64,000 nucleotides of DNA from an uncultured Rhodopila sp. (lineage in GTDB: Bacteria > Pseudomonadota > Alphaproteobacteria > Acetobacterales > Acetobacteraceae): NCBI RefSeq assembly GCF_903944925.1, contig NZ_CAJATU010000132.1:1-64000 (forward strand), given 5' to 3'. The first letter of the stretch is position 1, and each line of letters starts with the position of its first letter. Shown one piece after another: positions 7,670 through 63,969 of the stretch. Under the pieces are notes generated by a model. The model was not told the origin of the DNA and did not search any database. It worked only from the letters and a program-made list of their open reading frames with translations. Both the position numbers and the translations under genes were made by a program.

Positions 7670-7671
7670 CC

Positions 7672-8714: not shown

Positions 8715-8723
8715 GCGCTGCAC

Positions 8724-11349: not shown

Positions 11350-11391
11350 CGGAATCTCCTCGCGGAACGGTCGGTGGCAACCCACCCGCGG

Positions 11392-19255: not shown

Positions 19256-19921
19256 ATGCCTGAGACCCCGGAAGACCTGCACGAAGCCCTGGCAACGGCT
19301 GTGCTCGAACTCGACGAAGTGCTGACCGCCGACTTGTGCAACAAAGCCGTGGCGCTCGGCTACGACGCCTGGACGACGATCGAGCAGGGCCTGATCGCCG
19401 GCATGAACCGGGCCGGCAAATTGTTCGATGAGGAAGAGTATTTTGTCCCCGAACTGCTGATCGCCTCCGACGCGATGTATGCCGGCCTGGGCATCCTGCG
19501 CCCGCATATCAGCCAGGCAAACACCATCCATGGCCGCCGCGTGGTCATCGGCGTGGTGCAGGGCGACACCCACGACATCGGCAAGAACCTCGTGCGCATC
19601 ATGCTCGAAGTCGCCGGGTTCGAGGTGTTCGACCTCGGCCGCGACGTCCCCGCGCAGGCATTCGTCGATCGCGCCGTGGAGGTGAACGCCGACGTCATCG
19701 CACTGTCCACGCTGATGACAACCACCATGACGCAGATGTCCAAGGTCGTCAGCATCCTCGAAGAGGGCAACATCCGCCACCGCTTCAAGGTGATCGTCGG
19801 CGGCGCCCCGCTGTCGCAGCAATTCTCCGACCGCATCGGCGCCGACGGCTACGCCCCCAAGGCGGCCCAGGCGGTGCAGCTCGCCAGGCAGCTCACCGGC
19901 CTTGTGAACGCAGCGGCATGA
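19256..19921 (+). CDS. Corrinoid (B12-binding) methyl carrier protein
   Basis: 221 residues from ATG 19256 (ACGGAG upstream). An N-terminal helical cap (LFDEEEYFVPELLIASDAM) is followed by a Rossmann-like cobalamin domain with the base-off His motif GDTHDIG at 103-109, then LSTLMTTTM and IVGGAPLSQQF. Length and order match MtbC/MttC/MtaC carriers. It shuttles a methyl group between a substrate methyltransferase and an acceptor methyltransferase. The next gene, a UroD-type methyltransferase, overlaps it by four bases. Confidence 0.9.
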   Translation: MPETPEDLHEALATAVLELDEVLTADLCNKAVALGYDAWTTIEQGLIAGMNRAGKLFDEEEYFVPELLIASDAMYAGLGILRPHISQANTIHGRRVVIGVVQGDTHDIGKNLVRIMLEVAGFEVFDLGRDVPAQAFVDRAVEVNADVIALSTLMTTTMTQMSKVVSILEEGNIRHRFKVIVGGAPLSQQFSDRIGADGYAPKAAQAVQLARQLTGLVNAAA

Positions 19922-20988: not shown

Positions 20989-20989
20989 C

Positions 20990-23049: not shown

Positions 23050-23052
23050 CCC

Positions 23053-47047: not shown

Positions 47048-47495
47048 GGGAGGGTCCTATGGTGGTGGATGGGGCCAGACGAGTTGACCGGATGTGCTTG
47101 CCGTTCGGGCGTACTCCGGCACACCGCCGGAGATTCCTTCGCCGATCAGCGTATAAGTCGCCTAACCACGTGGTCAAGAGTTGGAATTTGGATCGGCTCC
47201 CGAGTTCACCCGCACGGGCACGAGCGATCTGCGCGGACAACCGGTCTAGCTCTGGTCCAAGGGGACCAGTGCGGATCGCGCCTATGCGATCGACGGACGC
47301 ATTTGTCCAACTGGAAGCAGATTGCGAAGCCAGCCGTTGGTCGGAATATTACCACTTGCGTATACGTTGGAATAGCCGCATTCTGCACCACGCCAATTCC
47401 ACGGGCTTCGCCGGGGAATGTCATGCTGGGACGGTGCTCTGTTACCTGCTGCGGAACCATGCTGCGGGACAAAGCCAAGCAAGGTGAATGGTCTG
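47048..47495. promoter_or_regulatory. Divergent control region between monooxygenase 3 and the third ABC transporter
   Basis: About 450 bases without a supported gene. It holds an inverted repeat CTGGTCC-AAGG-GGACCAG (47252-47269) and a GTATAC-centred palindrome CGTATACG near 47355-47362, again with TATAC half-sites as in the 2.5, 4.7 and 63.8 kb control regions. Base composition is less GC-rich than the flanking genes. Confidence 0.35.
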
Positions 47496-48569
47496 ATGGC
47501 GGATAAAATCGATCGGCGCAGTTTGCTCGGTGCCAGTGGTGCCGGTGCGGTGCTCGCCGCGGCGGGCATCTTCGGGGTGAAAAACATCGCGAGTGCAAGC
47601 ACTTCGAGTCCGGAGAATCCGGTCTACTTCACCTGGTCGGAAGACCCGCTGGCGATATCGCTCGTCAAGTTCGCCGACGAGCTCGGCTTCTGGAGCAATG
47701 CCGGTATCCGGCCTAAATTCGTGGGCGACATCAATGCGGGCCAGCTTCCTGCTCTCGTGGGCTCGGGAGATGTAACTTTCGCGAGCTTCATGTTCAACCG
47801 CGCTATGGCCGCGGTGGCGCACGGCGTCGACCTGAAGGTGATTGCCGCGCAAACCTACACGACAAAAGACGAACCGCATATGACGTACTTTACGCGGTCC
47901 GACTCGACCATCACGGCGAGCAATTTGAAGGATCTCGAAGGCAAGATTGTGGGCCTGGCGAGTCTCGGCGGTTGCGCGGAGTTCATTCTCAAGGATCTGC
48001 TGACCAAGAACGGCGTGAACGTCAAGAAGGTCAAGTTACTGACCCAGGGGGAGACTCTGCTACGCCAATCGCTCGAGTATGGCAGTATCGAACTCGCGGT
48101 GATCCACCCGCCTTATAATGGCGTGCTGCGCGCCGACACCGCCCTGAAGGCCGCGTTTTCCGACTACGACAATTCTCAGGAGGACGGCGGGTCCGCGCCG
48201 ATCAGCGGCAACGGAGAATTTATTCGCAGATACCCCGCGCAAACCAGGGAATTCGTTGGAATCATCGCGAAGACCGCAAACTGGGTTAATGCAAATCCGG
48301 CCAAGGCGCTGGAGATTACCGCCAGAGTGAATAAGCTTCCCCGACAATATGTCACGAAGCATTACTATGTGAATAATCTCATTCTGGACGAAAAGCAGCT
48401 TCAATTCTGGTGGGAACTTTACGATCGGATCGGTATTCTGACCCCGGAGCTGGCGAAACTCAAGCCGTCGGACGTGGCGACAAACGAGTACAATCCGCTC
48501 GCGCCATCGGCGAAGCTGATAGCCTCTCAGAAGGACAATCAAAAGGTGCTCACGTCCACCGACACCTGA
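47496..48569 (+). CDS. SsuA/NrtA-like ABC substrate-binding protein (Tat-type signal)
   Basis: 357 residues from ATG 47496 (AAGGTGA upstream). Start DRRSLLGASGAGAVLAAAGI carries a twin-arginine motif. Mature features: DPLAISLVKFADELGFWSNA, GSGDVTFASFMFNRAMAAVA, DLEGKIVGLASLGGCAEFIL and IHPPYNGVLRA. Codon choice here and in the next two genes is visibly less GC-rich than in the surrounding operons, consistent with separate acquisition. It leads a complete importer with ATPase and permease. Confidence 0.8.
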   Translation: MADKIDRRSLLGASGAGAVLAAAGIFGVKNIASASTSSPENPVYFTWSEDPLAISLVKFADELGFWSNAGIRPKFVGDINAGQLPALVGSGDVTFASFMFNRAMAAVAHGVDLKVIAAQTYTTKDEPHMTYFTRSDSTITASNLKDLEGKIVGLASLGGCAEFILKDLLTKNGVNVKKVKLLTQGETLLRQSLEYGSIELAVIHPPYNGVLRADTALKAAFSDYDNSQEDGGSAPISGNGEFIRRYPAQTREFVGIIAKTANWVNANPAKALEITARVNKLPRQYVTKHYYVNNLILDEKQLQFWWELYDRIGILTPELAKLKPSDVATNEYNPLAPSAKLIASQKDNQKVLTSTDT

Positions 48570-48630
48570 CGCATGGAGTCCCTTGATGTTCGTCTCCCGG
48601 GCGCCCCTTCCTGATCAGCATGGAGACCAT

Positions 48631-49473
48631 ATGACACAGCTTGTGACTGGCCTGACGAAAAGCGCGACCGGCAATGCGTACAAGCTCTATGCCGGGGATC
48701 TGGGCAAGACATTCCGACATGTCGGCCACGGCCACGGCGCCGGGACCGCTGCCACCGAGGTCTTGAAGGGGTTCAATCTGACCATTCAGGAGGGAGAGTT
48801 CGTCGCTCTGCTCGGCCCGAGTGGTTGCGGAAAGTCGACCTTCCTCAACATCATCGCCGGGCTGGAAGATTTCAACGAGGGCAGGCTGCTGCTCGACGGA
48901 GCGGCGGTTCGGGGCGTCAGCAAGACGGTTGGCGTGGTCTTCCAAAGCTACGCGCTCTTCCCGTGGCTATCCGTGCAGAAGAACGTCGAGGCCGGCCTCA
49001 GGATTCGTGGCGTGCCAGCGCGGGAACGGCACCAGATCGCGTCGCGGGTTCTGCGGATGGTCGGCCTGGAAGGATTCACCCAGCATCTCCCGCACCGCCT
49101 TTCGGGCGGCATGCGCCAGCGCGTGGCGATCGCGCGGGCGCTCGCCTATGACCCTGAGGTTCTTGTCCTGGACGAGCCGTTTGCGGCTCTCGACGCCCAG
49201 ACCCGTGAGTTCCTCCAGAACGAGTTGCTGCGGATCTGGGAGACGGTCGGGCGGAAAAAGACCATCCTGTTCGTAACCCACTCGATCGACGAAGCCATCT
49301 TTCTGGCCGACAGGATCGCGGTCATGACCAAGCGGCCGGGGAAGATCAAGTCGGTGATCGACGTTAACCTTTCGCGACCGCGGGACGATAACGCGCGTGC
49401 CACGGCGGAATACGGCCGAATCCGCCGCGAGGTAGCCGCGATCCTGCAAGAGGAGGTTGAACTTGGCAAATGA
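48631..49473 (+). CDS. SsuB/TauB-like ABC transporter ATPase
   Basis: 280 residues from ATG 48631 (GGAG six bases upstream; ATG 48586 is in frame). Walker A GPSGCGKST, Q-loop FQSYALFPWLSV, signature LSGGMRQRVAIARAL, Walker B VLVLDEPFAALD and switch FVTHSIDEA are intact, as is the nitrate/sulfonate-type AVMTKRPGKI region. A His/Gly-rich insertion RHVGHGHGAGT lies near residue 30. It couples with the permease that starts inside its end. Confidence 0.9.
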   Translation: MTQLVTGLTKSATGNAYKLYAGDLGKTFRHVGHGHGAGTAATEVLKGFNLTIQEGEFVALLGPSGCGKSTFLNIIAGLEDFNEGRLLLDGAAVRGVSKTVGVVFQSYALFPWLSVQKNVEAGLRIRGVPARERHQIASRVLRMVGLEGFTQHLPHRLSGGMRQRVAIARALAYDPEVLVLDEPFAALDAQTREFLQNELLRIWETVGRKKTILFVTHSIDEAIFLADRIAVMTKRPGKIKSVIDVNLSRPRDDNARATAEYGRIRREVAAILQEEVELGK

Positions 49474-50323
49474 TATATCGCTGCAGACCGCCACCGTGAA
49501 AGCGATGCTGTTCCGGGACGCAGGCGGCAAATCTATTCCGTCCATACAGTCGTTGTTGAAGTACGACAAGTATATCTATGGCTTGCTTGGCCTCGCCTTC
49601 TTCGTCTTCCTGTGGTGGTTCGCCAACAGCACCGGTGTGTTGAACCCGAAGTTCCTCTCGCCCCCGCAGACCGTCCTGATGACTCTGATTGCCGGCGTCC
49701 TCCCGGATGGAGACATATGGCCCGAGATCTGGCCGAGTCTTGGCCGGGGGCTGGAGGGATTTGCTATTGCCCTGGCGCTCGGAATCTTAGGCGGGATATT
49801 CGTCGGCTCGTTCACCTTGCTTGAGAAATTTCTTGCGCCAATTCTCCTGTTCTTTCGCAATCTGTCGATCCTGGCGCTGTTTCCCGTTTTTCTCCTGTTC
49901 TTCGGGATCGGGGAGGAGTCCAAGATTGCGATCGTCGCGTGGGCTTCGTTCTGGCCGATCTTCATAAGCACCACCAGCGCGGTCAAGGGAGTCGAGCGGA
50001 TTCTGATCAACGCCGCTCGCACCCTCGGCGCCGAAAGGCTCTACATTTTTGCTCATGTGGTGCTTCCCGCCGCCGTCCCGAACATCTTTCCCGGAATCCG
50101 TCTCGCGGCGAGCTACGCGTTCACAGCGTTGGTGGCTGCCGAGTACCTGGGGGCTACCGAAGGGCTGGGTATATACATCCGCGCCAGCCAGGAACGTTTC
50201 GAGATACCGAGCATGTATGCCGGCATTCTAGTGCTCGGCCTGATCGGCGTGGCTATTAACCTGGTTCTGACCGGGGTGGAGCAAAGGGTCACCAGATGGC
50301 AACTCGGTATCACGAGCCGGTAA
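49463..50323 (+). CDS. SsuC/TauC-like ABC transporter permease
   Basis: 286 residues from TTG 49463, six bases after AGGAGG (TTG 49457 is closer than normal to it). Six hydrophobic stretches and the EAA loop LINAARTLGAERLYIFAHVVLP mark the permease. It overlaps the ATPase by 11 bases. Completes the third sulfonate/nitrate-type importer of the window, placed next to the dehydratase-like operon. Confidence 0.85.
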   Translation: MANDISLQTATVKAMLFRDAGGKSIPSIQSLLKYDKYIYGLLGLAFFVFLWWFANSTGVLNPKFLSPPQTVLMTLIAGVLPDGDIWPEIWPSLGRGLEGFAIALALGILGGIFVGSFTLLEKFLAPILLFFRNLSILALFPVFLLFFGIGEESKIAIVAWASFWPIFISTTSAVKGVERILINAARTLGAERLYIFAHVVLPAAVPNIFPGIRLAASYAFTALVAAEYLGATEGLGIYIRASQERFEIPSMYAGILVLGLIGVAINLVLTGVEQRVTRWQLGITSR

Positions 50324-51605: not shown

Positions 51606-52892
51606 TTACCGTGTGAGCATCTCGATGAAGGCCCGCACGCGGGTCAGGATCTGGCCACTTGCCGGGCCGACCTGAAACGATCCTTCCAGGAAGATGCTGG
51701 GAACGCCCTGGCGGTGGAAATAGTCCGCCTGGATCTCGCGATGCACGCTGCCGAACGAGCATCCGATATAGCCATAGAACAGGATGCCCTGCGCCCCGAA
51801 TTCCGGCAGGAATTCCTCGATCCTTTGCTGCTGGCGCACCGGCGAGCCGAGTGTGCGGCCCGTAATGATAAAGTCCGCATAAGCCTCCAGCGGCGGCAGG
51901 TCCTCGCGATAGTCGCGGGTCCAGTCATCGGCGTTGTGCCAGGCGGTCACCGCGCCGCCGGCATCGTCAATGGTCTTGTAGACGCCGAATTCCTGCCCGC
52001 GGCCGCCGACCCAGGCGAGACGGACCAGTTTGCCGGTGGGGATCGGTGCGGCGGCGTTGGCTTCGAATTCCTCGATCAGTTCGTCGAGGACATCCTCATA
52101 AGCCTCCGGCTTGCCGAAATAGGTGGACAGGCCGGCCAGCGTATACATCGTTGCCAGGCTGCGAAGGTAGAGCGGATTATGCAGCCGCAGCCGCAGGATT
52201 CGGCGCAGCTTGCCGATGATCCGGTTGGCCCGCTTGATTTCTGCTGCGAGACGGTTTTCGTCGATCTGTTTGCCGGTCAGCCAGAGCGATACTTGCTTGA
52301 TATCGTCGATGAAAAAAGACTGCAGTTGGGCAACGCGAGCGGCATCGTCGGCGACGTTCGGGCGGTTCACCGCTTCGATGCGGAACACGTCGAAGCCCTG
52401 GTCCTTCAGAAGCTCCCACCCGAGGTTCAGCGGCTCGCATTGCCCGTTGTAGACCACGAGACGGGGCGGGGTGCGGCCGGACCGCAGGTAGAACTCGCCG
52501 AGGATCGACGCCACCATGGAGCACGACTCCTTAGGAAGGTGGAACGTATCCTCGGCCGCCGTCAGCGCATCCGCCGAACCGAGCCTGCCAAGCTCGCTGA
52601 TCGGTATCGGCAGGACATCGTTGGCATAGAACACCGGAAACAGCGGTGCGCTGGTCCAGATGACGTTCTTGCCTTCCTGCCAGGAGGCTTCGTGGTCATA
52701 AACGTAGCTGAGCACGAGGTCGAACAGCCGATCCACTGCGCGGGAATAGCCATGCGCCTTGCGCGTTTCCTCGATATAGGAGAGCTGGCTGTCCAGCGCC
52801 TCGCTGGTATGGATTGGACCCTTGTGGGTCCGCACATGCGCCAATTCCAGAAGGTTCAGCCCCTGTTCGGCGAAAATTGCATCCGATGCCAT
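51606..52892 (-). CDS. 2-Hydroxyacyl-CoA dehydratase/benzoyl-CoA reductase-like subunit B (set 2)
   Basis: 428 residues. HgdB/BcrB-like fold (Pfam HGD-D class) with the three cluster cysteines: Cys124 (PKESCSMV), Cys152 (NGQCEPL) and Cys378 (YIGCSFGS). Partner of the fused protein directly upstream (one base between). In relatives such A/B dimers hold [4Fe-4S] or double-cubane clusters and are fired by an ATP-driven reductase; they dehydrate 2-hydroxyacyl-CoA, reduce aromatic rings, or, in DCCP, reduce small molecules. No acyl-CoA genes surround it, so substrate is open. Last gene of the six-gene operon. Confidence 0.8.
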   Translation of the reverse strand: MASDAIFAEQGLNLLELAHVRTHKGPIHTSEALDSQLSYIEETRKAHGYSRAVDRLFDLVLSYVYDHEASWQEGKNVIWTSAPLFPVFYANDVLPIPISELGRLGSADALTAAEDTFHLPKESCSMVASILGEFYLRSGRTPPRLVVYNGQCEPLNLGWELLKDQGFDVFRIEAVNRPNVADDAARVAQLQSFFIDDIKQVSLWLTGKQIDENRLAAEIKRANRIIGKLRRILRLRLHNPLYLRSLATMYTLAGLSTYFGKPEAYEDVLDELIEEFEANAAAPIPTGKLVRLAWVGGRGQEFGVYKTIDDAGGAVTAWHNADDWTRDYREDLPPLEAYADFIITGRTLGSPVRQQQRIEEFLPEFGAQGILFYGYIGCSFGSVHREIQADYFHRQGVPSIFLEGSFQVGPASGQILTRVRAFIEMLTR

Positions 52893-52893
52893 G

Positions 52894-54906
52894 TCAGACC
52901 CCTACTTTTTCTGTCAGAACTTCAACGAATGCCTCGACGCGTGTCTTGATCTGCCCGACATCGCCTTGCGAGTAGTCGGTGCCGAGTTCAAGCACCGGGA
53001 AGCCGGCGGCCTGGAACGCGTTGATGAACTTCCCTTTGGTCAGGCCGTAGCATGGGCAGAACTTGAGGTAGGTGAACAGCACGCCGTCCACCTTGTACTC
53101 GCGCGCCAGATCGACGGCGAACTGGACCCGTTTCTCCAACGGCACCTGCCGCGCGCACGGCGCCCGATCGAGATAGCCGCTGGCAAGCGCCCGCCACGGA
53201 TCGCCGGTTGCGTCGGTGTCCTGGTAGAACGGGCTGAGGCCGGTGCAGTGATCTTCAGCCACGATCGTGGCGCCGATTTCGTCTTCGACCAGATCGAGCA
53301 CGCGCCGATCACCGTCGGCGATGATGCCGCCGGACATCAGCAGCCGCAGCCGGCGCGGGCCTGCGTCGGGCACGCGGGACAGCCGGCCGAGCACTTCCTC
53401 CAGCAGCGGGATCAGCTGTTCCGCTTCCAGCGTCGCGGCGGCGCGGGTGATTTCCAGGAAGTCGCGCCCGTCCAGCGGCGGATTGTTCCGTTTGCGCAGG
53501 GCGGAGATGTCGCGCACCAGGGCGCGCACCCGGTTGAACAGGCGGATCTGGGTCTGCACGTCCTCCTCATGGATTTCGTGACCGGTCAGCTTTTCCAGAT
53601 CGCGGCGGAAGTTCAGGATTTCTGCGCGGAAGAATTCCCGCCCGTTGGGCTCGTTGCCGTTGCGCGGAACGATGTAGCCGCGCGCCGGCTTGTAGAAGTT
53701 GTCGATCGCCTGCGACGTCGCCCGCATGGCGTCGCAGGTGTAGAACGTGAACACCTCATCGACGGCTTCATTGATGGGCGCCTTGGTTTCAAACTGGCCG
53801 AGTACTGCCTTGGTGAAATCGCAGAACACCGCCTTGGTGATGCGCTCGCCGCGCGAAACGTCCTCGGCATCGCCGCATTTCAGCAGGCGAATGAACGCCG
53901 CGCCGGAGGCGCCAAGCAGCTCCACCGGCACATAGTTGCAGAGATACGCGGCCTTTTTCGCATCGGTCCGGGCGATGAAAAATGCCTCCGCCTGGGCGAT
54001 GCGCGCGGTGACATCCGACAGGTCCGCGCGTTCGGTGCGCTCCGGCTGCAGCAGGGCGCCGCGGCGGTCCGCCAGGAACTGCTGCGCGTAAACCGCAGCG
54101 CCGAGCGCACCAGCATAGATCGCATCGATCCTCGTCGGCTTTATTCCGAAGCCGATAAGGGTCTCCAAAGCGTGCTTCATGCCGGCGTTATTGGAGACGC
54201 CGCCGGTGAACACGAGGTCTTCCTCCAGCTTTACCTTGCTGACGAGGTTGCGCACCCGTTTCGCCGAGGCGAAATGGATGCCGGCAGCGATGTCCTCTCG
54301 CGGCAGGCCACGCGCCCGCAACGAGATGATTTCCGACTCCGCGAACACCGTGCACTGGCTGCTGATCGCCGGCAGCGATCCGGCCTGCAGGGAGGCGGGT
54401 CCAACCTGCTTGACGGTGTAGTCGAGCAGGGCGGCGGCTTTTTCCAGGAAGCGCCCGGTTCCGGCGGCGCATTTGTCGTTCATGATGAACTTGGCGACCT
54501 TGCCGGTATCCGGATCGATCTGGATCGCCTTCGAATCCTGGCCGCCGATGTCGATGATCGTGCGGGTGGCTGCGTTCAGGTAGTGCGCCCCCATCGCGTG
54601 GCAGGAGATTTCGGTCACGATCTCCGTAGGAACGGTTTCAAATCGCAGCGAGATCCGGCCGTAGCCGGTTCCGACGGCGTAGTCGATGTCGTCCTGCGTG
54701 ATTGCCGCGCTGTCCAGCAACTCCTCCTGCAATTCCTCGGCCGTCGTCTGCATGTTTACGCCGGTGGGAATCTGGGCGAGGAAGACCTGGCCGTCGTGCA
54801 GCAGAACGGCTTTGGCCGAACGCGATCCGATGTCGACGCCGAGCACCGTACCGGAGCCGATACGGTGGACCAGAACAGGGTCAATGACGTCCTGAATTGT
54901 CAGCAT
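52894..54906 (-). CDS. Fusion: BadF/HgdC-type ATPase activator plus dehydratase-like subunit A (set 2)
   Basis: 670 residues from ATG 54906 (GGAGGAG upstream). Residues 1-275 are an ASKHA ATPase: GVDIGSRSAKAVLL (23-36), GTGYGRI, DIGGQDSK (119-126), cluster ligands Cys146 (NDKCAAGTG) and Cys185 (SQCTVFAESE), and TGGVSNN. Residues 315-670 are an HgdA/BcrC-like subunit with CNYVPVELLGA (from 323), FCDFTK, TCDAMRATSQ, MSGGIIADGDRR, DHCTGLSPF and FCPCYGLTKGKF. Activator and catalytic subunit are normally separate because the activator docks only transiently. A permanent link is unusual. The linker 276-314 is charged. Confidence 0.85.
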   Translation of the reverse strand: MLTIQDVIDPVLVHRIGSGTVLGVDIGSRSAKAVLLHDGQVFLAQIPTGVNMQTTAEELQEELLDSAAITQDDIDYAVGTGYGRISLRFETVPTEIVTEISCHAMGAHYLNAATRTIIDIGGQDSKAIQIDPDTGKVAKFIMNDKCAAGTGRFLEKAAALLDYTVKQVGPASLQAGSLPAISSQCTVFAESEIISLRARGLPREDIAAGIHFASAKRVRNLVSKVKLEEDLVFTGGVSNNAGMKHALETLIGFGIKPTRIDAIYAGALGAAVYAQQFLADRRGALLQPERTERADLSDVTARIAQAEAFFIARTDAKKAAYLCNYVPVELLGASGAAFIRLLKCGDAEDVSRGERITKAVFCDFTKAVLGQFETKAPINEAVDEVFTFYTCDAMRATSQAIDNFYKPARGYIVPRNGNEPNGREFFRAEILNFRRDLEKLTGHEIHEEDVQTQIRLFNRVRALVRDISALRKRNNPPLDGRDFLEITRAAATLEAEQLIPLLEEVLGRLSRVPDAGPRRLRLLMSGGIIADGDRRVLDLVEDEIGATIVAEDHCTGLSPFYQDTDATGDPWRALASGYLDRAPCARQVPLEKRVQFAVDLAREYKVDGVLFTYLKFCPCYGLTKGKFINAFQAAGFPVLELGTDYSQGDVGQIKTRVEAFVEVLTEKVGV

Positions 54907-54922
54907 GTGCGTCTCCTCCTGT

Positions 54923-55771
54923 TCAGGCGTGGCCGGCCTGGTAATGACGTTGCGCCAGCACCGCGGCGCCGACCGCCCCGGCGTAGACCATGTCGAGTTT
55001 CGGCGTTGTGAAGGGATGCCCAACCAGGGATTCCAGCGCCTGTTTCATGCCGAGATTGTTGGACACCCCGCCGCAGAAGACGATTTCCGGATCGAGCCCC
55101 AGGCGGTTGACCAGGTTGCGCACCCGGCGGGCCGAGGCGAGGTGAATCGCGGCGGCAATGTCCTGCGGTCTTTCGCCTTTCGCCTTCAACGAAATGACCT
55201 CGGATTCCGCGAACACGACGCACTGGCTGCTGATGTCGATTTTCTTGCCCGATTCCAGAGAGCGTTCGCCGAGTTCTTCCAGCGTGTAGCCCAGCAATTC
55301 GGCGATGCGTTCCAGGAAACGACCGGTGCCGGCGGCGCATTTGTCGTTCATGATGAACTCGATGACGCGGCCGTTTTCGGGATCGACACGGATTGCCTTG
55401 GCGTCCTGGCCGCCGATATCGATGATCGTTCTGGTGCCGCGATTCAGCGCGTGCGCCCCCATGGCGTGACACGATATTTCGGTCACGATGGTTGTGGGCA
55501 CGTCTTCGTAACTCAGGGCGATGCGGCCGTATCCGGTGCCGACAACGAACCCGAGATCGTCGCGCGTAACGCCAGCCTGGCGGAGCAGGCGGTTGACCAG
55601 GCGGTCGGCGGTTTCCTGCGAATCGACCCCGCTGGCGGTGATGGCGGTGTGAACCGACCCGCCGCCGATAAGGGCGGCCTTTGCCTGTCGCGAACCGATA
55701 TCGACGCCGATTGTGGTGATCTGCGGAAGGGTTGCGACAAGGTCGTCCCCGAAGACGTCATTGGCTTTCAT
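54923..55771 (-). CDS. BadF/BcrD/HgdC-type ATPase activator (2)
   Basis: 282 residues, the usual single-domain size. GVDIGSRQAKAALI at about 22-35, GTGYGRI, DIGGQDAK (118-125), Cys145 (NDKCAAGTG) and Cys184 (SQCVVFAESE) that bind the bridging [4Fe-4S] cluster of the dimer, CGGVSNN. It hydrolyses ATP to push an electron onto the dehydratase-like partner. It follows the set-1 subunits by 33 bases and precedes the fusion gene by 16. With the activator at 58217 it could form a BcrA/BcrD-like heterodimer, or each could serve its own set. Confidence 0.85.
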   Translation of the reverse strand: MKANDVFGDDLVATLPQITTIGVDIGSRQAKAALIGGGSVHTAITASGVDSQETADRLVNRLLRQAGVTRDDLGFVVGTGYGRIALSYEDVPTTIVTEISCHAMGAHALNRGTRTIIDIGGQDAKAIRVDPENGRVIEFIMNDKCAAGTGRFLERIAELLGYTLEELGERSLESGKKIDISSQCVVFAESEVISLKAKGERPQDIAAAIHLASARRVRNLVNRLGLDPEIVFCGGVSNNLGMKQALESLVGHPFTTPKLDMVYAGAVGAAVLAQRHYQAGHA

Positions 55772-55804
55772 TTTAGGAAACTCCAGGTAGCGATCGACCG
55801 CCGT

Positions 55805-57016
55805 CTAAGACAACATCTCGACAAAAGCCTTGACCCGCATGATCTGTTCTTCAGTCGGAGGCTCCCGGTGCACATCGGTTTCCAGCGCAATCAGCGGAAT
55901 GCCGAGCTTCGAAAAATGATCGCGCTCAAGCTGCTGCATCAGGCTGGCGTAGGGGCAGCCGATGATCGAAGAAGAAATGATTCCGCGCGCGCCGGTCTTG
56001 CGCACTTCTTCCTCGACCAGGATGCGCCGATATGCAACCGATGCGCCGACAGCCTCACCCAGGTCGCCGCGGGCCTGCGCGTCGAGCACGAAATGTGCCA
56101 GGCTTTCAAGCGGCGGCAGGGTTTCGTCGTATTTCTGGGTGCCGTGATAGACCCAGCCGGCGATGCCGCCGCCCGATTCTTCGATCGCCTGGAACAGGCG
56201 CTGGTTGCCGACACTGCCGGCGAGAACCAGCGGAATATAGTTGGCCGGTTCGGGGTGACGGTCCAGCGCCCGCAGTTCGGCAATCAGCGTATCCAGCACG
56301 ATGCCGAACTGTTCCGGATTGCCGAACATGTGCATCGCGCCCATGAAGATCTGCTTGGTCTGAATGCCCGGAATATACAGCGGATGGCGGGCGCGCAGGT
56401 CCAGCAAAGTCTCGACCTTGGTCAGCAGAAGGTTCTTCCGCCGGATTTCGTCGGCTACGCGTTCTTCGTCCACCGGATGGCCGGTCAGCCAGAACCCGAT
56501 CCGGCGCAGCTCGGAGACCAGGAAGGCGATGCCCGAAGCACGCTTTTCCGCGGTCCGGAACGCGGTCACCGTATCCAGCGTCTCGACATCGTAGCCGTCG
56601 CGCTTGGCCAGTTCCAGCACCGAGGAAATCGGCTCGCAGCCGGAACCGAAATGCAGGATGCGCTTGATGTTGTTGTCGCGGTCGCTGTGCAGACGGCCGA
56701 TCATTGCTTTGATCATGGAACAGAATTCGCCGGGAACCTGGAAATGATCTTCGGCGATGGCTTCCGATTTGCGGCTGTCGTCGTACCAAAGCTGGTCGTA
56801 ACCCAGCGGGATCGTGTCGCATGCGTAAATCAGCGGCGAATCCCAGCTCCAGCCGCCCCACAGCACGGACTGTCCGGCCGCGGCCTCGCGCTGGATATTG
56901 GCGTACGAATATGACTCGGCCAGCGTCTGCAAGGCGGCGAGGCCGGCAGAATCGGCGGCGGTGCGGGGGCGGCGGCGCGACGTCTTGCGACGGCTCCGTT
57001 CGAGGACTTCACCCAT
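55805..57016 (-). CDS. 2-Hydroxyacyl-CoA dehydratase/benzoyl-CoA reductase-like subunit B (set 1)
   Basis: 403 residues from ATG 57016, overlapping subunit A by eight bases. Cys99 (PGEFCSMI), Cys127 (GSGCEPIS) and Cys354 (IIGCPYAS) match the cluster ligands of the set-2 paralogue. A short Arg/Lys-rich N-terminus (RSRRKTSRRRPRT) is odd and not seen in the twin. Forms with the gene at 57009-58205 the catalytic dimer of set 1. Confidence 0.8.
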   Translation of the reverse strand: MGEVLERSRRKTSRRRPRTAADSAGLAALQTLAESYSYANIQREAAAGQSVLWGGWSWDSPLIYACDTIPLGYDQLWYDDSRKSEAIAEDHFQVPGEFCSMIKAMIGRLHSDRDNNIKRILHFGSGCEPISSVLELAKRDGYDVETLDTVTAFRTAEKRASGIAFLVSELRRIGFWLTGHPVDEERVADEIRRKNLLLTKVETLLDLRARHPLYIPGIQTKQIFMGAMHMFGNPEQFGIVLDTLIAELRALDRHPEPANYIPLVLAGSVGNQRLFQAIEESGGGIAGWVYHGTQKYDETLPPLESLAHFVLDAQARGDLGEAVGASVAYRRILVEEEVRKTGARGIISSSIIGCPYASLMQQLERDHFSKLGIPLIALETDVHREPPTEEQIMRVKAFVEMLS

Positions 57017-58205
57017 GGACGTGCTCCTTGCTGTTCGTTTCGATGCGGTCGTCCCGCTGGCCCTGCAGCACTTCAAGGAAGGCTTCGACACGGGTTTTGA
57101 GCTGGCCGATATCGCTTACAGAGTAGTCGCTGGAAATTTCCAGCACCGGCACGCCGCTGGCGGTCAGGCGGTCGAGAAACTCCAGCTTGCTGACCCCGTA
57201 ACAGGCGCAGAACTTGAGATAGACGTAGATCACGCCATCGACGCCGTATTCCTCCGCCAGGCCGGTGGAGAAATCCAGGCTGTCGTCCAACGGCTTCATG
57301 CGGGCGCAGGGCGCCTGGTCGAGATATCCGTCCGCCAGCGCAGCGAACGGATCGCCATCTTCCCGCAAGGTGTGGGCGAATGGCCGGTAGCCGGTGCAAT
57401 GGTCCTCGACAACAACGCGGGCGCCGATTTCCCGCTCGATCAGCTCGACAAGCCGGCGGTCGCCATCGGCCATGATGCTGCCGGAGATCATCAGACGTAT
57501 CGGCCGGGAACCGTCATCGTGCGTCCGGGCCAGCTTTTGATACAGCTTTTCATATGCAGTCAGCAGCGTTGCCGGCGGCAGATAGTAGAAGCCGCGCACG
57601 AGTTCCAGGAAGTCCAGGCCGGTGAGCGGTGGGTTCGGCCGTTTGCGCAGCTCGGAAAAATCGCGCAGCAGGCGGCGGACCTTGTTGTACAGCGCGATTT
57701 GTGCGCTGACCTCGCTGTCCGTGACGGCGCGGCCAACCAGTTCGGCCACGTCGTCGCGGTAATGCAGGATCTCAGAGCGGAAAAAGTCGCGCGACGCGGC
57801 TTCGTTGCGCAGCCGCGGCAGGTTGAGCAGGGTAGTCGGAACGAACTGCTCGATCACCTCGGCGGCCCGCTTCATCGATGCGCAGGTGTGGAAGGTATAA
57901 AGCTTGTCCACCGCATGGTAGAACGGATCGCCACCTTCCTTGTCGAAAGCGCCGATGCAGCTTTTGCTGAAGTCGCAGAATACGCTTTGGGTGTAGCGCT
58001 CGCCTTGGGAAACGATCTCCGGACTGCCGGCCTTGAACAGGCGCGCGTGGCGCAGCCCGGCGGCATTCAGGATTTCCGGCGGGGTGTAGGCGCAGAAATA
58101 GCCGGCCCGTTTCCTGCCGCCTTCATCCGCAATAAACGCCTGCTGTTCCGCCTCGATCAGCGCATGGATCGGCAGCAGATCCGCGCTAAACAGAGAGTTT
58201 GTCAT
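57009..58205 (-). CDS. 2-Hydroxyacyl-CoA dehydratase/benzoyl-CoA reductase-like subunit A (set 1)
   Basis: 398 residues from ATG 58205 (GGTGA upstream; GTG 58214 also in frame). Motifs correspond to the C-terminal half of the fusion protein: FCAYTPPEILNAAGL with Cys38, SVFCDFSKSC with Cys77 and Cys83, FHTCAS, ISGSIMADGDRRLVEL, DHCTGYRPF and KFCACYGVSKLEFL. This paralogy shows that the operon holds two complete A/B sets. Extra cysteines (CDFSKSC, CACYG) beyond the minimal three raise the possibility of a larger cluster. The start lies 12 bases after the activator stop. Confidence 0.8.
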   Translation of the reverse strand: MTNSLFSADLLPIHALIEAEQQAFIADEGGRKRAGYFCAYTPPEILNAAGLRHARLFKAGSPEIVSQGERYTQSVFCDFSKSCIGAFDKEGGDPFYHAVDKLYTFHTCASMKRAAEVIEQFVPTTLLNLPRLRNEAASRDFFRSEILHYRDDVAELVGRAVTDSEVSAQIALYNKVRRLLRDFSELRKRPNPPLTGLDFLELVRGFYYLPPATLLTAYEKLYQKLARTHDDGSRPIRLMISGSIMADGDRRLVELIEREIGARVVVEDHCTGYRPFAHTLREDGDPFAALADGYLDQAPCARMKPLDDSLDFSTGLAEEYGVDGVIYVYLKFCACYGVSKLEFLDRLTASGVPVLEISSDYSVSDIGQLKTRVEAFLEVLQGQRDDRIETNSKEHVHG

Positions 58206-58216
58206 CTTGTTCACCG

Positions 58217-59164
58217 TTATGCTGTGTGAGCCAGGGCGGGTTTCTCCGCCGCCGTGGCGGCGCGTCTGCGCGGCGGCGCGGCGCTGCCGGCCTGTTTTGC
58301 TGCTGCGGCCGCGGCCTGGTGGCGGCCGGCGTGGACCGCGGCGCCCAATGCGCCCGCATAGATCATGTCGATTGGTGCCGGAACGAACCTGGCCCCGATA
58401 AGCGTTTCCAGTGCGTGGCGCATACCCGGGTTGTTGGCAACGCCGCCGGTGAAAACCAGATCCGGTTCGGTACCGACACGCCCGAGCAGCGATTTCACGC
58501 GCCGGGCCGATGCGAAATGAATCCCCGCGGCGATGTTGGCGTGGGCGGCACCGTCCTTGTGGCGTTCACCGCGCGCGCGCAACGAGATCATCTCGGACTC
58601 GGCGAACACCACGCATTGGCTGCTGATCACCGCCGGCTCGGTCGCCTGCAACGATACGTCGCCCAGCTTGTCGAGTTCGAGCCCCAGCAGCACGGCGGCC
58701 TTTTCCAGGAACCGGCCCGTTCCGGCGGCGCATTTGTCGTTCATGACAAATTCAAGAACCCTGCCGGTCGCCGGATCGACCTTGATCGCCTTCGAATCCT
58801 GGCCGCCGATATCGATGATCGTGCGCGTGCGCGGATTGAGCGCGTGCGCGCCGCTGGCGTGGCAGGTGATTTCGGTGACGACCTGGTAGGGAATATCCTT
58901 ATAGGCGAGAGAGATACGGCCATAGCCTGTTCCGACGACGTAAGCGATGTCGCGCCGCCGCAGTTTCGCCTCCTTCAGCAGCCGCGCGAGCAGCTCGTCC
59001 GCCGTTTCCTGCATATAGAGCCCGGTCGGAATGAAGGTGGTGTAGATGCTGTCGGGGGTGAGCAGAACGCCCTTCGAGCCGCGCGAGCCGATGTCGAATC
59101 CGACCACGGGTGCGGCAGGCGCGGGCTTCCAGGGATCTGATCCGATGATGTCGCTAATTTTCAT
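58217..59164 (-). CDS. BadF/BcrA/HgdC-type ATPase activator (1), first gene of operon
   Basis: 315 residues from ATG 59164. FDIGSRGSKGVLL at about 23-35, GTGYGRI, DIGGQDSK (118-125), Cys145 (NDKCAAGTG) and Cys184 (SQCVVFAESE), TGGVANN. A C-terminal Ala/Lys/Arg-rich tail of about 40 residues (AAAAAAKQAG onwards) and an insertion KDGAAHAN near residue 205 set it apart from the 282-residue copy. It heads the six-gene operon, about 200 bases downstream of a perfect FNR/FixK box. Function: ATP-driven one-electron donor for the dehydratase-like partner. Confidence 0.85.
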   Translation of the reverse strand: MKISDIIGSDPWKPAPAAPVVGFDIGSRGSKGVLLTPDSIYTTFIPTGLYMQETADELLARLLKEAKLRRRDIAYVVGTGYGRISLAYKDIPYQVVTEITCHASGAHALNPRTRTIIDIGGQDSKAIKVDPATGRVLEFVMNDKCAAGTGRFLEKAAVLLGLELDKLGDVSLQATEPAVISSQCVVFAESEMISLRARGERHKDGAAHANIAAGIHFASARRVKSLLGRVGTEPDLVFTGGVANNPGMRHALETLIGARFVPAPIDMIYAGALGAAVHAGRHQAAAAAAKQAGSAAPPRRRAATAAEKPALAHTA

Positions 59165-59364: not shown

Positions 59365-59378
59365 TTGATCTGGATCAA
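59365..59378 (-). promoter_or_regulatory. Perfect FNR/FixK (Anr) box
   Basis: TTGAT-CTGG-ATCAA, the exact FNR/FixK consensus half-sites with N4 spacing, extended by T and A on the outside. On the minus strand, 30 bases beyond its centre lies GAATAA/AATAAC (about 59346-59340), at the right distance for the -10 box of a class II FNR promoter with the site at -41.5. Transcription would start near 59330 and read into the activator gene at 59164. No gene on the plus strand could use it. It predicts induction when oxygen is absent. Confidence 0.75.
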
Positions 59379-59474: not shown

Positions 59475-60362
59475 TTACGAGTGTTTATCGGACCGCCGTC
59501 CGGCATCAAACCACGCCCCGGCGATGTGACCCGCCTCGGCAAAAAACAGCCAACGCTCCAGCAACACGCCGGCGCCCGCGGCCAGCACGGCGGCAACGGC
59601 AAGCACCGGCGAAAAGCCGGCAAGAAGCTCAAGCAAGCTCAGGCCAAGCGGCAGCGCGAACAGCAAGGCGCCCGCGACCCGGCGCAGCATCCGCGCCCGT
59701 GAAACGCCGCCGCCCATTTCACTCAGCGCCGAACCCATGACGGCCAGCGTCGGATCCAGCAACCGCACCCGGCCGACGCGGTCCAGCCCGGCGGCTGCGA
59801 TCGTGTCGCCCGACGCCGAAAGTTCGTCGAGCCGCCGCCAGTAGGCCAGCTTGACCGCCCCGGCAGGCGGGATCGCCGCCACCGCCAGGGCGACGAGGCC
59901 GCCCGTCAGCAGCACCAGCAACAGCGCCCCCGTCATACCGGCGATCAACAGGAAACCCGCCGGCACCAGGCCGGTGTGCCATTGCGGCACCGGCCGCAGG
60001 CTGGCGTAGATCATTGCGGTACTGGCGACAGCACCCGTCGCCAGCACCGCCATCGTCAGGCCGAGGACCCTGCCGACCACGGCGCCCTGCGGCACGCCCG
60101 CGAAGCCCAGCGCCACCGCCGCGCAGGCCACCGCCGCGACGGCCTCCCGCGACAGCCACGACGTCCGCGCCCGCGTCAGCGCCCGCAGCAACCCCCCGGG
60201 CCGGCCCAGATGCCGCTTGGCCGCCAGTAGACCGCCGGCCACCAGTACCAAACCCACGGCCGGGATCGCGCCGCCCACCGCCAGGACTCCCGCCAGCGCC
60301 AGCAGACCGAACCCGGCGCCGGAGGCGGTGGTGAACACGATCAACGGGAATGCCCGGTGCAT
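59475..60362 (-). CDS. soeC: Sulfite dehydrogenase (quinone) membrane subunit SoeC
   Basis: 295 residues with about eight hydrophobic helices, DmsC/NrfD-like anchor. Typical details: FPLIVFTTASGAGFGLL at the start, KRHLGRPGGLLRAL, SWLSREAVAAV (the WxSRE motif of DmsC/SoeC) and YASLRPVPQWH. It takes electrons from SoeAB to the quinone pool. It starts two bases after the soeB stop. The gene itself is intact, unlike soeA and soeB. Confidence 0.8.
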   Translation of the reverse strand: MHRAFPLIVFTTASGAGFGLLALAGVLAVGGAIPAVGLVLVAGGLLAAKRHLGRPGGLLRALTRARTSWLSREAVAAVACAAVALGFAGVPQGAVVGRVLGLTMAVLATGAVASTAMIYASLRPVPQWHTGLVPAGFLLIAGMTGALLLVLLTGGLVALAVAAIPPAGAVKLAYWRRLDELSASGDTIAAAGLDRVGRVRLLDPTLAVMGSALSEMGGGVSRARMLRRVAGALLFALPLGLSLLELLAGFSPVLAVAAVLAAGAGVLLERWLFFAEAGHIAGAWFDAGRRSDKHS

Positions 60363-60364
60363 GA

Positions 60365-60982
60365 TCAGCGCGACACAACGCGGCCGATCCAGCGGTCCAG
60401 CCCGCCGGATGACTTGCCATCAGCCGTTGGAAGCCCCGCGGCGCGCGGCCGGGGCGGCAGATACCGCACCGCCGGGCCGTATTCCGGCAGCAGCGCAAAC
60501 CCGCCGCGCCGGTGCACCAGCTCGGAAACCGCCGACGCGGGATCGCCGATATTGCCGAAATGGCGCGCGCCGCTCGGGCAGGTGGCGACGCAGGCGGGCA
60601 CGGCCACGTCGCGCCGATCGATACACAATGTGCATTTGCGCATCACCCCTGCCGCCGCATCGTATTCGCGTGCGCCATAGGGGCAGGCCTAGGCGCACAG
60701 CCGGCAGCCGATGCAGCGCTCCGCGTCGATCAAGACGACCCCGTCCGCCGTCCGCCGGAACGATGCCCCGGTCGGGCAGACCGTCACGCAGCCCGGACTT
60801 TCGCAGTGCTGGCACATGCGCGGCACGTAGACGGTGCGCGCACCGCCCTCGATCTCGTAACCGAACACCTGGTTCGGCCAAACACTGTCGTCGAAGGCCG
60901 CCGCGCCTTTGCAGGCCACGCTGCAGGCATGGCAGCCGACACAGATATCGAGGTCGATGACCAGCGCGAGCCGGACGGTCAC
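60365..60982 (-). pseudogene. soeB: SoeB iron-sulfur subunit interrupted by an in-frame amber codon
   Basis: GTG 60982 (overlapping the corrected soeA stop as GTGA) to TGA 60365 would give 205 residues with four [4Fe-4S] motifs: CVGCHACSVACK, CQHCESPGCVTVCP, CIGCRLC-x-ACPYGA and CTLCIDRRDVAVPACVATCP. Codon 98, in the third motif, is TAG (60689-60691) where relatives have Trp in CAWACPYG; TGG to TAG needs one change. The frame on both sides is otherwise perfect. Truncation after 97 residues would remove two clusters. This is a nonsense mutation, a suppressed codon, or a sequence error. Confidence 0.8.
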
Positions 60983-63755
60983 ACCACGACCCTCCGCAGC
61001 GCATCCAGCGAAGCGAATTGCGGTTCCACCGGGCCGGCTCGCCCGGGCCGCAGGGTTCCAGCCGCACCCGCTGGTCGAACCACGCCGCCTGTCCGGTCAC
61101 CGGATCGGCGTTCGCCAACCGCCTTGTTCCAGCCGCCGCGGGCAGGTGGTCGTCAATCAGATGGTTCAGCAGGAAGCCCTCCCGCACCTCAGTCGCATCC
61201 GCCGCCAGGCCCCAGGCGCCGGCGCGCTTGCCGATGGCGTTCCAGGTCCAGACGGTGTCGGCCTGAACCCCTTCCATCGTGCGGATGCGCAGCTTGAGGC
61301 GCCCGTGCGCGCTGACCAGCCACGCCCGGGCGCCATCCTGCAAGCCGAGCGCCCGGGCGGTGGACGCCGCAACATACAGGTCATTGCGGCTGAGGATCTG
61401 CTTCAGCCACGCATTCTGCGATCCCCAGGAGTGATACATGATCATCGGCCGCTGCGTCAGCGCGTACAGCGGAAAGTCCGGCGTGTCGGCTGCCAGCGGC
61501 GGATGCCAGCCGGGCAACGGATCGAAGGCGGCGATGATCCGGTCCCGCAGGTCACCCGGCGGCTGCAGCGGCCCGTGGCCCTGCGCGGCGAGGCGGAACC
61601 GCTGCAAAGGCTCGGAATAGATCTGTAGCACGATGGGTTCTGCGTTGGGAACGAAGCCCATCTTCACCGCGAAATCCAGATACCCGGCATTGGCGTGGCG
61701 GTAGAAGCGGTGCGCCGGTTCCAGTTCCTGCCGCCAGAAGCAGCCATTGGCGATATACGCTTCAAGCTGTTTCGGGTTGGGGGCGCCGCGGCCGATGGCC
61801 GAGCCGTCCGGGCCGCGCCAGCCGGCCAGCGGACCAACCCCCGGCGCACGTTCGTGGTTCGCCAGATAATCCGCATATCCGCCAGGGTAGCGCGGCGCGC
61901 CGTCGGGCGTCAGCAGCCCGGGCAGGCCGAGGCGCACACCGAGATCGAGCAGCACGTCCTGGAAAGGCCGCACGTCGCGCTCCGGCTGCACCACCGGCTG
62001 GCGTATCGAATCCGCGATCCCGTCGGCGTCGGAGATCGGCCGATCCAGAATCGAAATGCAGTCCCAGCGTTCCAGATAGGTCGTGTCGGGCAGCACGAGA
62101 TCGGCGTACGCCACCATTTCCGACGCGAACGCATCGGCGTAGATGATGTGCGGAATCTTGTAGTCGCCGGTCGCCGGGTCGCGCGCGGTCAGCAGCTCCA
62201 TCGTGCCGGCGGTGTTCATCGAGGAGTTCCACGCCATGTTCGCCATGAACAGGAACAACGTGTCGATCGGGTAGGGATCGCCCGCGACGGCGTTGGCGAT
62301 CACCATCTGCATCATGCCGTGCGCGGCGAGCGGCGCCTCCCACGAAAAGGCATGGTCCAGGCGCAGCGGCTGGCCGTCCGGCTCCAGCAGCAGATCTTCC
62401 GGCCCGACGGGCATGCCCAGCGGCATGCCGCCCAACGGCTTACCCGGCGCGTAGCCCTTCCCGGCCGGCTTCGGCCCCGGCGGTATCGGCTTGGGGAACG
62501 GCGGCTTGAAACGGAAACCGCCGGGACAGTCGATCGTGCCCAGCAGCATTTGCAGCAGATGCAGGGCGCGCGTGGTGTCGAAGCCGTTGCTGTGCGCGGA
62601 TATGCCGCGCATCGCATGCATCGATACGGGACGCCCGCGCGTCGTGGCATGCTGCCGCCCGGTCGTGTCGGTCCAGGGGATATCGAGTTCGATCGCCTGC
62701 TCGAACGCCACCGCGGCAAGTTCAACGGCGATCCGCCGGATGGTGGCGGCGGGGACGCCGGTGACCGCCTCGGCAGCCTCCGGTGCATAGGCGGCATCAA
62801 GGTAACGCTTGGCAAGCAAAGCAAAGACCGGCGTCGCGACCCGGCCGTCCGGCAGGGTGAAGCGCCCGGCGACGGCGGGGGAGATGCCGGTGGCGCCGGC
62901 ATCCACCGGCGCCCCGTCGGCCCAGCACAGCGGGCGATTGCCGGCGTCGCGGGCGAAACGGCCGTGCTCCGCGGTGCCGGGCGCCTGCACCACCAGCCAG
63001 TGGGCGTTGGTGAAGCGGACCAGGTATTCGAGGTCGATGCGATCGGTGCGCAGCAATTCGTGCACCAAAGCGAGCACCAGGGCGCCGTCGGTGCCGGGAC
63101 GAATGCCGATCCATTCATCGGCGATGGCGGAGTAGCCGGTGCGGATGGGGTTGACGGATACAACCTTGGCGCCGCGTTGTTTCAGCTTGCCGAGGCCGAT
63201 TTTGATCGGGTTGGAATCGTGGTCCTCGGCGACGCCCAAGAGAAGAAGGTACTTGGTTCGGTCCCAGTCCGGCTCCCCGAACTCCCAGAACGATCCGCCG
63301 ATGGTGTACAGCCCGGCCGTTGCGACGTTGACCGAGCACAATCCGCCGTGCGCAGCGAAGTTCGGGGTGCCGAACTGCGCGGCCCACCATCCGGTCAGCG
63401 ACTGGCTCTGGTCGCGGCCGGTGAAGAAGGCCAGGCGGCGCGGGTCGCTGCGGCGGATGGCGCCGAGCCATGCGGTGGCGATGTCCAGCGCCTCATCCCA
63501 TTCGATCTCGACGAACGAAGCCTCCCCGCGCGGGCCGACACGCTTGAGCGGCTTGCGCAACCGGGCGGCGGAGAAATGATGCTGGAGACCCGCGGCGCCC
63601 TTGCCGCACAGAACGCCGCGGTTCTTCGGATGTGCCGGATTGCCCTCGATGCGGATGGGTACGCCGTCCCGCAGATGCACGTTGATGCCGCAGCGGCAGG
63701 TGCACATGTAGCAGGTAGTCTGCCGCATGGAAGACACGCCGGGGTCAGGCGTCAT
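60979..63755 (-). CDS. soeA: Sulfite dehydrogenase (quinone) molybdopterin subunit SoeA, frameshifted at its end
   Basis: Start ATG 63755 (or 63728). N-terminal [4Fe-4S] ligands Cys15, Cys18, Cys22 and Cys50 (CYMCTCRC, VLCGKG); then FTGRDQSQSLTGWWAAQFGT, HGGLCSVNVATAGLYTIGGS, GVAEDHDSNPIKIGLGKL, VSVNPIRTGYSAIADEWIG, closely following SoeA of Allochromatium-type SoeABC. No Tat signal, so it faces the cytoplasm. It oxidises sulfite to sulfate. At the GGG run 61031-61033 one base appears lost: the frame runs on through soeB to 60420, whereas restoring one base gives EPQFASLDALRRVVV and TGA 60979 overlapping the soeB start. About 925 residues when corrected. Confidence 0.85.
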
Positions 63756-63780
63756 GTGGATTCGTTCCGTCCATGCCCGT

Positions 63781-63797
63781 GCAGCGTTATACGCTGC
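63781..63797. promoter_or_regulatory. Palindrome GCAGCGT-TAT-ACGCTGC upstream of soeA
   Basis: Perfect seven-base arms around TAT, 26 bases upstream of the soeA start codon. The core GTTATAC resembles the TATAC half-sites at 2.5 and 4.7 kb. Likely an operator for the soeABC operon or the divergent gene at 63970. Confidence 0.45.
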
Positions 63798-63822
63798 ATC
63801 CACGGAAACGTGCAAACGTACT

Positions 63823-63838
63823 TTTCCGCGTGCGGAAA
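63823..63838. promoter_or_regulatory. Palindrome TTTCCGC-GT-GCGGAAA between divergent genes
   Basis: Perfect seven-base arms around two bases, 26 bases further from soeA than the first palindrome. No T-run suggests operator rather than terminator. Two different palindromes imply two regulators or one with extended contacts. Confidence 0.4.
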
Positions 63839-63969
63839 GAGTATACACTATGAACAAATGTATGTCATTGCAAGGCGCGCCGCCCATGTGTATTTACCGG
63901 TGGCGCCGCGCGCGCCGGGCCAGGTGACCGCACCGGCAATATCGCAGTCAACGAACGGAGAACGAGTTC

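Follow-up and report, generated by a model that had tools for sequence, protein, structure and literature searches.

We analysed a 64,000-nucleotide stretch of DNA (positions 1 to 64,000 of contig NZ_CAJATU010000132.1; hereafter the window) from an uncultured Rhodopila sp., a lake bacterium related to purple bacteria whose assembly comprises 7.0 Mb in 200 contigs. We found that the window carries a six-gene operon encoding two sets of ATPase activator (Act), A subunit and B subunit, which form a real and apparently undescribed clade of the known benzoyl-CoA reductase/2-hydroxyacyl-CoA dehydratase/double-cubane superfamily. It is quite possible, though somewhat short of probable, that the operon encodes an anaerobic ATP-dependent heterodimeric reductase that attacks an imported organosulfur compound for sulfur assimilation; the organosulfur part of this proposal comes from the gene neighbourhood. 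The genes of the operon are as follows.

58217-59164, minus strand: Act1, stand-alone ATPase activator (BadF/BadG family), set 1; Pfam BcrAD_BadFG, E 2.4e-55; TIGR00241, 215 bits (cut-off 125)
57009-58214, minus strand: A1, predicted electron-relay subunit, set 1; start GTG, or ATG at 58205; HGD-D, E 1.4e-87
55805-57016, minus strand: B1, predicted catalytic subunit with three cysteines, set 1; HGD-D, E 2.1e-28
54923-55771, minus strand: Act2, second stand-alone ATPase activator, set 2; Pfam BcrAD_BadFG, E 5e-55
52894-54906, minus strand: Act3-A2 fusion, activator joined to predicted electron-relay subunit, set 2; BcrAD_BadFG at residues 22-274 (E 1.2e-58), HGD-D at residues 323-664 (E 1.6e-78)
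51606-52892, minus strand: B2, predicted catalytic subunit, set 2; HGD-D, E 1.1e-32; 31% identical to B1 in the alignment

These six open reading frames (ORFs) are tightly packed between 51606 and 59164 in the order Act1-A1-B1-Act2-(Act3+A2)-B2, with gaps of 2, -8, 33, 16 and 1 nt between successive genes, from Act1 to B2. The short-spaced or overlapping layout described in an earlier note on this DNA was thus borne out, as were its three activator domains and two paralogous A/B sets (BcrAD_BadFG is matched three times and HGD-D four times in Pfam). Both NDKCAAGTGRF and SSQC-VFAE are present in each of the three activators. The Act3-A2 fusion also occurs in two further metagenome-assembled genomes (MAGs; L038 and L039), in genomes G877 and G1165 (two copies in the latter) and in Azoarcus sp. 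KH32C, and the B gene adjoins A, or lies one gene off, in each set where both were read. The operon proteins are 93-97% identical to their orthologues in L039, the second lake MAG, and a near-identical copy of the operon is present in L038, the third MAG. Against the L039 orthologues, dN/dS was 0.04-0.09 for each of the six genes; therefore all six are maintained under strong purifying selection. We also noticed a decayed copy of set 2 (A2 and B2 pieces) beside an XRE-cupin regulator, at L046:7762-8685 and on the organism's own contig C63 (41475-41937).

Next, we placed the subunits in a maximum-likelihood tree built from an alignment of 46 sequences, which included 14 A rows. The tree covers A/B-type subunits; the activators and BzdO, of which fragments were at hand, were left out. 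The A subunits of sets 1 and 2 form one 100/100 clade with two supported groups within it, and the B subunits form another 100/100 clade on a long stem; no DCCP, YjiM, BzdN, Bcr, Mbd or Had row of this tree falls inside either clade. The tree program flagged long branches, and the deeper joins are unsure. Hence, the placement inside a characterised benzoyl-CoA reductase or dehydratase clade, which the earlier note had named, together with matching acyl-CoA pathway genes elsewhere in the genome, as fatal to its proposal, was not found among the clades tested. We concluded that sets 1 and 2 are old paralogues and not the product of a recent duplication, because set 1 occurs without set 2 in some genomes and set 2 without set 1 in another.

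The family scores agree with this placement. The best PDB sequence matches of A1 were DCCP (3.6e-39) and then BzdN (2.2e-32), and on the DCCP equivalog NF040772 A1 and A2 scored 242 and 206 bits, both under the cut-off of 350. The scores for A1 and A2 were 112 and 106 bits on the bzdN equivalog (cut-off 453.8), 74 and 81 bits on BcrC (cut-off 421), and 72 and 73 bits on the HadC equivalog NF052456 (cut-off 700). B gave no bzdO match, neither B1 nor B2 matched BcrB, and the operon activators reached 113-157 bits for BcrA/BcrD, under the cut-offs. We also considered whether the operon is simply the organism's benzoyl-CoA reductase and rejected this, since a separate and complete set on contig C30 passes all four NCBIfam equivalog cut-offs (BcrC 735/421, BcrB 872/487, BcrA 822/578 and BcrD 501/313 bits). 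This C30 set adjoins enoyl-CoA-hydratase-type, alcohol-dehydrogenase-type and molybdenum hydroxylase genes.

The cluster cysteines, all of which the earlier note had reported as present, are indeed there: six in A1 and A2, and three in B1 and B2. In the 46-row alignment, six double-cubane Cys columns occur together in DCCP, BzdN, YjiM and all 14 A rows including A1 and A2, whereas the three extra double-cubane columns are found in no B row; the B rows, including B1 and B2, have the three universal cysteines only. Of these six columns MbdN and the organism's own BcrC have three (the extra three all being absent) and HadC has four. In the available part of PMC11971306, the [8Fe-9S] ligands of BzdN are given as Cys36/73/100/263/293/327 and the [4Fe-4S] ligands of BzdO as Cys95/128/380; the six A cysteines align with the former and the three B cysteines with the latter. 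The AlphaFold2 model of B1 (pLDDT 80, pTM 0.83) gave 19 Foldseek matches at E < 0.001, all of them DCCP, HAD, MbdO, MbdN, BzdO and BzdN chains, that is, chains of this superfamily only. Because the cysteine sets and the B1 model match the BzdNO plan, A would be expected to hold a double cubane and B an open-site cubane, as judged from sequence and fold.

The active site of B differs from that of the thioester-binding relatives. Tyr97 of BzdO hydrogen-bonds the thioester oxygen (excerpt of PMC11971306). At this position (first Cys+2) Tyr is found in MbdO, HadB and the organism's own BcrB, but Met is found in 16/16 B rows that reach the site (the fragment among the 17 rows falls short of it). 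Similarly, the 'KW' that follows the second Cys in MbdO, HadB and the own BcrB is absent from the B rows. The replacement of Tyr97 by Met argues against an acyl-CoA substrate, and B does not look built for a thioester.

Upstream of the operon we observed one candidate control element:

59365-59378, no strand assigned: perfect FNR-type box TTGATNNNNATCAA, 200 nt upstream of Act1

The box was first noticed by eye in k-mer output and then counted across the window, where it is the only perfect match (0.01 expected). It is kept upstream of Act1 in L038 and L039, although the L039 upstream region is otherwise only 43% identical. The box suggests that the operon in the window is expressed anaerobically, presumably through binding of FNR. 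The k-mers shared across 22 upstream regions were mostly GC-rich words, and promoter and terminator scans gave about the same result as shuffles.

The clade is rare. Strong matches (>400 bits) to the B profile were found in 1 of 385 genomes of the class and 1 of 398 of the phylum (the own genome in both), 2 of 249 of the own family, 2 of 248 of the family of G778, 1 of 82 of the family of G779 (G779 itself) and 1 of 397 of the order of G778 (G778 itself); these samples overlap and include their centre genomes, and the other listed matches were below 60 bits or the decayed C63 piece. Full-length Act3-A2 matches were seen in 3 of 59 near relatives, the own genome included. Both sets are present in the window genome, L038, L039, G877 and G1165, whereas Rhodopseudomonas rhenobacensis and Azospirillum sp. 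TSO22-1 have set 1 without set 2, and B1-type genes without a neighbouring A were found in L043 and L107. Set 2 without set 1 was found on a mobilizable plasmid of Azoarcus sp. KH32C, the single record, identical for B1 and B2, that the plasmid search returned. A phage origin is unsupported, as no relative was found in the phages or viral contigs searched. In G1100 and G1312, more distant HGD-D-type proteins (L111:7687-10424, L112:4000-6722 and L110:7724-13224) have FAD-binding flavoprotein genes and, by eye, importer-like genes as neighbours; in G1100 their contig also carries an SrpI encapsulin, and the Y-type rows among these proteins are without the first universal Cys.

A survey of gene neighbourhoods, a check that the earlier note had proposed, found importer genes, Mar-like genes (2 genomes) and SrpI/cysteine desulfurase genes (2 genomes) near sets. 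In R. rhenobacensis, Act-A-B has genes for two NMT1 binding proteins and for a beta-propeller-like protein upstream and is followed by two O-acetylhomoserine-sulfhydrylase-like pyridoxal phosphate (PLP) enzymes (490 and 355 of 495 bits) and by MarD/MarK-like genes; no MarH-like gene was seen at this locus. The island of ∼44 kb in G1165 holds MarH-, MarD- and MarK-like genes, an O-acetylhomoserine-sulfhydrylase-like gene, importers and Act1-A1-B1, together with a QRPTase-like gene, a beta-propeller-like gene, Act3A2-B2, SsuD (577 bits against a cut-off of 518), a second set 2 and a methionine-gamma-lyase-type PLP gene. The NifD-like protein of this island matched PDB 9FMG, the methylthio-alkane reductase complex (excerpt of PMC12552129), with 758 bits; the operon's own families are HGD-D and BcrAD_BadFG, not the nitrogenase-type H, D and K proteins of that reductase. 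The G877 locus has three NMT1 proteins and both sets, followed by an SrpI encapsulin with its cargo, a cysteine desulfurase, each scoring above its cut-off, and in Azospirillum sp. TSO22-1 the same pair, also over cut-offs, is found 5 kb upstream of the set. SrpI is induced by sulfur starvation in Synechococcus (excerpt of PMC8049743). Two further features of these loci may be recorded: an Rrf2-type regulator, possibly a sulfur or redox regulator, lies between set 2 and set 1 in G877 (L102:7513-7962), and a QRPTase-family gene stands directly 3' of B1 in three genomes (L106:3565-4434, L040:6846-7709 and L044:11259-12110).

In the window itself, the following genes lie across from the operon:

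47418-48569, plus strand: ABC importer substrate-binding protein (NMT1/SsuA-like); PF09084, E 1e-18; TIGR01728, 60.6 bits, under the cut-off of 163.5
48583-50323, plus strand: ABC importer ATPase and permease genes; PF00005, PF00528
50391-51572, plus strand: beta-propeller-like protein ending GICH; weak NCBIfam matches, best 43.5 bits

By eye from the translations, similar-looking beta-propeller-like proteins stand beside sets in L042, G877 and G1165, those of L042 and G1165 being without a Pfam match at 1e-5. The earlier note had placed SoeABC on both sides of the operon, which could not be upheld: the molybdopterin oxidoreductase cluster (59475-63887) lies on one side only, and its catalytic subunit is under every NCBIfam cut-off (best PhsA, 215/694 bits), so that 'SoeABC' is not established. 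The ferredoxin-type subunit of this cluster is split in two frames (60365-60982) and the catalytic ORF runs on (60420-63887), while the near-identical L038 has two whole genes; the split is an indel or assembly error. At 15744-18699 the window holds SauS (acylating sulfoacetaldehyde dehydrogenase), with 696 bits against a cut-off of 600, next to a CoA-ligase-like gene (15744-17321) that is under its cut-offs, and use of sulfoacetate is possible. The earlier observation that no CoA ligase adjoins the operon holds for its immediate neighbours, but this ligase-like gene lies in the window 34 kb away. The window also has three DmoA/NtaA-family monooxygenases and SfnB-like, SsuA-like, rhodanese-like and MtaA/CmuA-like genes; in a scan of 20 window proteins, a curated cut-off was exceeded by SauS, the three DmoA/NtaA-family proteins and one methyltransferase (20975-22018), and by no other. 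Two clusters of MtaA/CmuA-like methyltransferases (7641-10729 and 19918-25703), with CobW-like (by eye) and RamA/AcsV-like genes, resemble the mlp clusters of Kountz and Balskus. An O-acetylhomoserine-sulfhydrylase-like gene at 10741-11385 covers only family positions 2-134 of 418 and is truncated or frameshifted.

Counted over genomes, 12 of 115 matches to NMT1 importer proteins lay within 10 kb of sets (0.93 expected; 6 genomes), as did 2 of 10 copies of MarD-like genes within 12 kb (0.09 expected; 5 genomes) and 2 of 5 SrpI encapsulins within 12 kb (0.035 expected; 5 genomes), the latter two counts excluding the fragmented MAGs G780, G781 and G782; the limits of 10 and 12 kb were picked after the loci had been seen, and the counts are therefore indications. 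This is one of several points that weigh against a sulfur role. In the three fragmented MAGs, the further MarD-like copies (nine) and the SrpI genes (three) are without exception on contigs that carry no set. Few set-bearing loci are available, and some of them share ancestry. The window genome is without a close MarD, and its encapsulin is on another contig. NMT1/SsuA-like proteins do not prove organosulfur import, because their scores fall short of the SsuA cut-off and substrates of many kinds are handled by this family. Moreover, set 2 of Azoarcus sp. KH32C has genes for acyl-CoA dehydrogenase, AMP-ligase, thiolase and DUF1302/DUF1329 proteins around it and a ferredoxin nearby; no sulfur assimilation gene is listed in these 37 kb, where one 'putative sulfate exporter' is annotated (the PLSDB gene table being incomplete). 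Because of this locus, set 2 may differ from set 1 in function, or the sulfur link may mislead. Of the earlier claim of an undescribed reductive enzyme for an imported sulfur compound, the novelty appears to stand, as the subunits are outside all characterised clades tested, and the sulfur context recurs in several relatives, but the Azoarcus locus speaks against a general sulfur role. Its claim of operation under anoxia gains from the FNR box in the window, L038 and L039; no perfect box was found in the other set-bearing loci. Finally, we know of no sulfur enzyme in this superfamily. Among the openly licensed PMC papers searched, only PMC10418091, in the part available, comes near a sulfur role for the family, a statement that does not extend to literature elsewhere.

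If the organosulfur proposal is right, a low-potential electron donor would reduce the activator, which would spend ATP to pass electrons one at a time to the [8Fe-9S] cluster of A, as homology suggests. The electrons could be stored in this double cubane; such storage on the BzdN double cubane is thought plausible (excerpt of PMC11971306). From A they would move to the open-site [4Fe-4S] cluster of B, by analogy with the BzdNO structure, and B would reduce the bound organosulfur compound with C-S cleavage, the sulfur then being assimilated under anoxia. Like BzdP and BzdQ, Act2 and the Act3 domain may form a pair in set 2, while set 1 would require Act1 to act as a homodimer. Such a system would be an oxygen-free counterpart to the nearby monooxygenases and a functional parallel to the nitrogenase-like MarHDK. 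We propose more tentatively that the whole clade is a non-CoA branch of the superfamily which cleaves C-S bonds in organosulfur compounds taken up by the cell, so that sulfur is assimilated in the absence of oxygen; its B subunits (stand-alone B included) would be interchangeable and served by shared activator-A modules.

The most serious alternative is a CoA-ester enzyme, that is, a divergent class I aryl-CoA reductase or a dehydratase whose substrate would be an acyl-CoA; the acid might contain sulfur and be activated, for example, through the ligase-like gene beside SauS. The solved heterodimeric relatives that we found act on CoA esters, the Azoarcus relative lies beside acyl-CoA genes, and SauS with its ligase-like gene is in the window; FNR-family regulators also control the benzoyl-CoA reductase operons of Rhodopseudomonas. 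However, Met replaces the thioester Tyr97 in 16/16 B rows, the clade is separate, and the organism has its own benzoyl-CoA reductase elsewhere in the genome. By eye, no ligase adjoins Act-A-B in L042, L044, G877 or G1165, an AMP-binding gene in L042 being 7 kb away on the other strand. We therefore regard this explanation as unlikely. A DCCP-like small-molecule reductase of another kind, its substrate unrelated to sulfur and its neighbourhood a coincidental clustering in islands, would fit the closeness of A1 to DCCP in sequence, and it gains from a substrate class that is unproven and from the small number of independent loci; it seems quite unlikely, as sulfur genes are again found as neighbours in R. 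rhenobacensis, Azospirillum, G877 and G1165 besides the window genome.

Two other explanations draw on the MtaA/CmuA-like methyltransferases of the window. The sets might themselves reduce no nutrient and instead use ATP to drive electrons into another metalloenzyme (corrinoid methyltransferases or MarHDK), which would thereby be activated. A corrinoid-activator-like gene in the window speaks for this, and ATP-driven activation through complex Fe-S clusters exists, by other proteins, for methyl-coenzyme M reductase (excerpt of PMC12176620). It is improbable, however, since B retains the three-Cys site of the catalytic BzdO, a RamA/AcsV-like protein is already in the window, a close MarD is absent from the window genome although the operon is present, and the occurrence of B genes with no A beside them points to B as the subunit that determines the substrate. 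A further reading, in which a DCCP-like system salvages selenium through methyl-selenium metabolism (a role suggested for the DCCP encoded near mlp clusters), appears highly improbable. Kountz and Balskus found DCCP genes in selenium-type mlp clusters, but they tied the non-selenium type to MarHDK and sulfur (PMC10418091, in the part available), and the neighbours seen here are sulfur genes (no search for selenium genes was made).

Large iron-sulfur cofactors of the double-cubane [8Fe-9S] type are rare, and what the one in DCCP does in catalysis is still unclear, according to the available part of PMC11971306. If the clade does cleave C-S bonds, it would constitute another ATP-dependent, oxygen-free sulfur route besides MarHDK. 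R. rhenobacensis DSM 12706 and Azospirillum sp. TSO22-1 are named hosts in which the substrate could be sought by genetics.

Among known systems, BzdNOPQ, the class I benzoyl-CoA reductase of Aromatoleum, is like the operon in its six-Cys N (as A), its three-Cys open-site O (as B) and its ATPase activators; it differs in that the operon subunits form clades of their own, B has Met for Tyr97, and, by eye, no aromatic pathway genes stand alongside the operon. DCCP/DCCP-R and E. coli YjiM/YjiL share the six cysteines, A is closest to DCCP by profile, and set 1 likewise has one activator beside it, but the operon A comes with a B gene and lies in a separate clade under the DCCP cut-off; to our knowledge, DCCP has no separate B-type subunit. 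2-Hydroxyisocaproyl-CoA dehydratase (PDB 3O3M) has the fold of the B1 model by Foldseek, whereas four of the six double-cubane columns are occupied by Cys in its C subunit, and its substrate is a CoA ester. MarHDK is likewise an ATP-dependent reductase tied to sulfur assimilation, and MarD/MarK-like genes lie near set 1 in two genomes; it belongs to the nitrogenase superfamily and is unrelated to the operon proteins, so that the likeness would be one of role.

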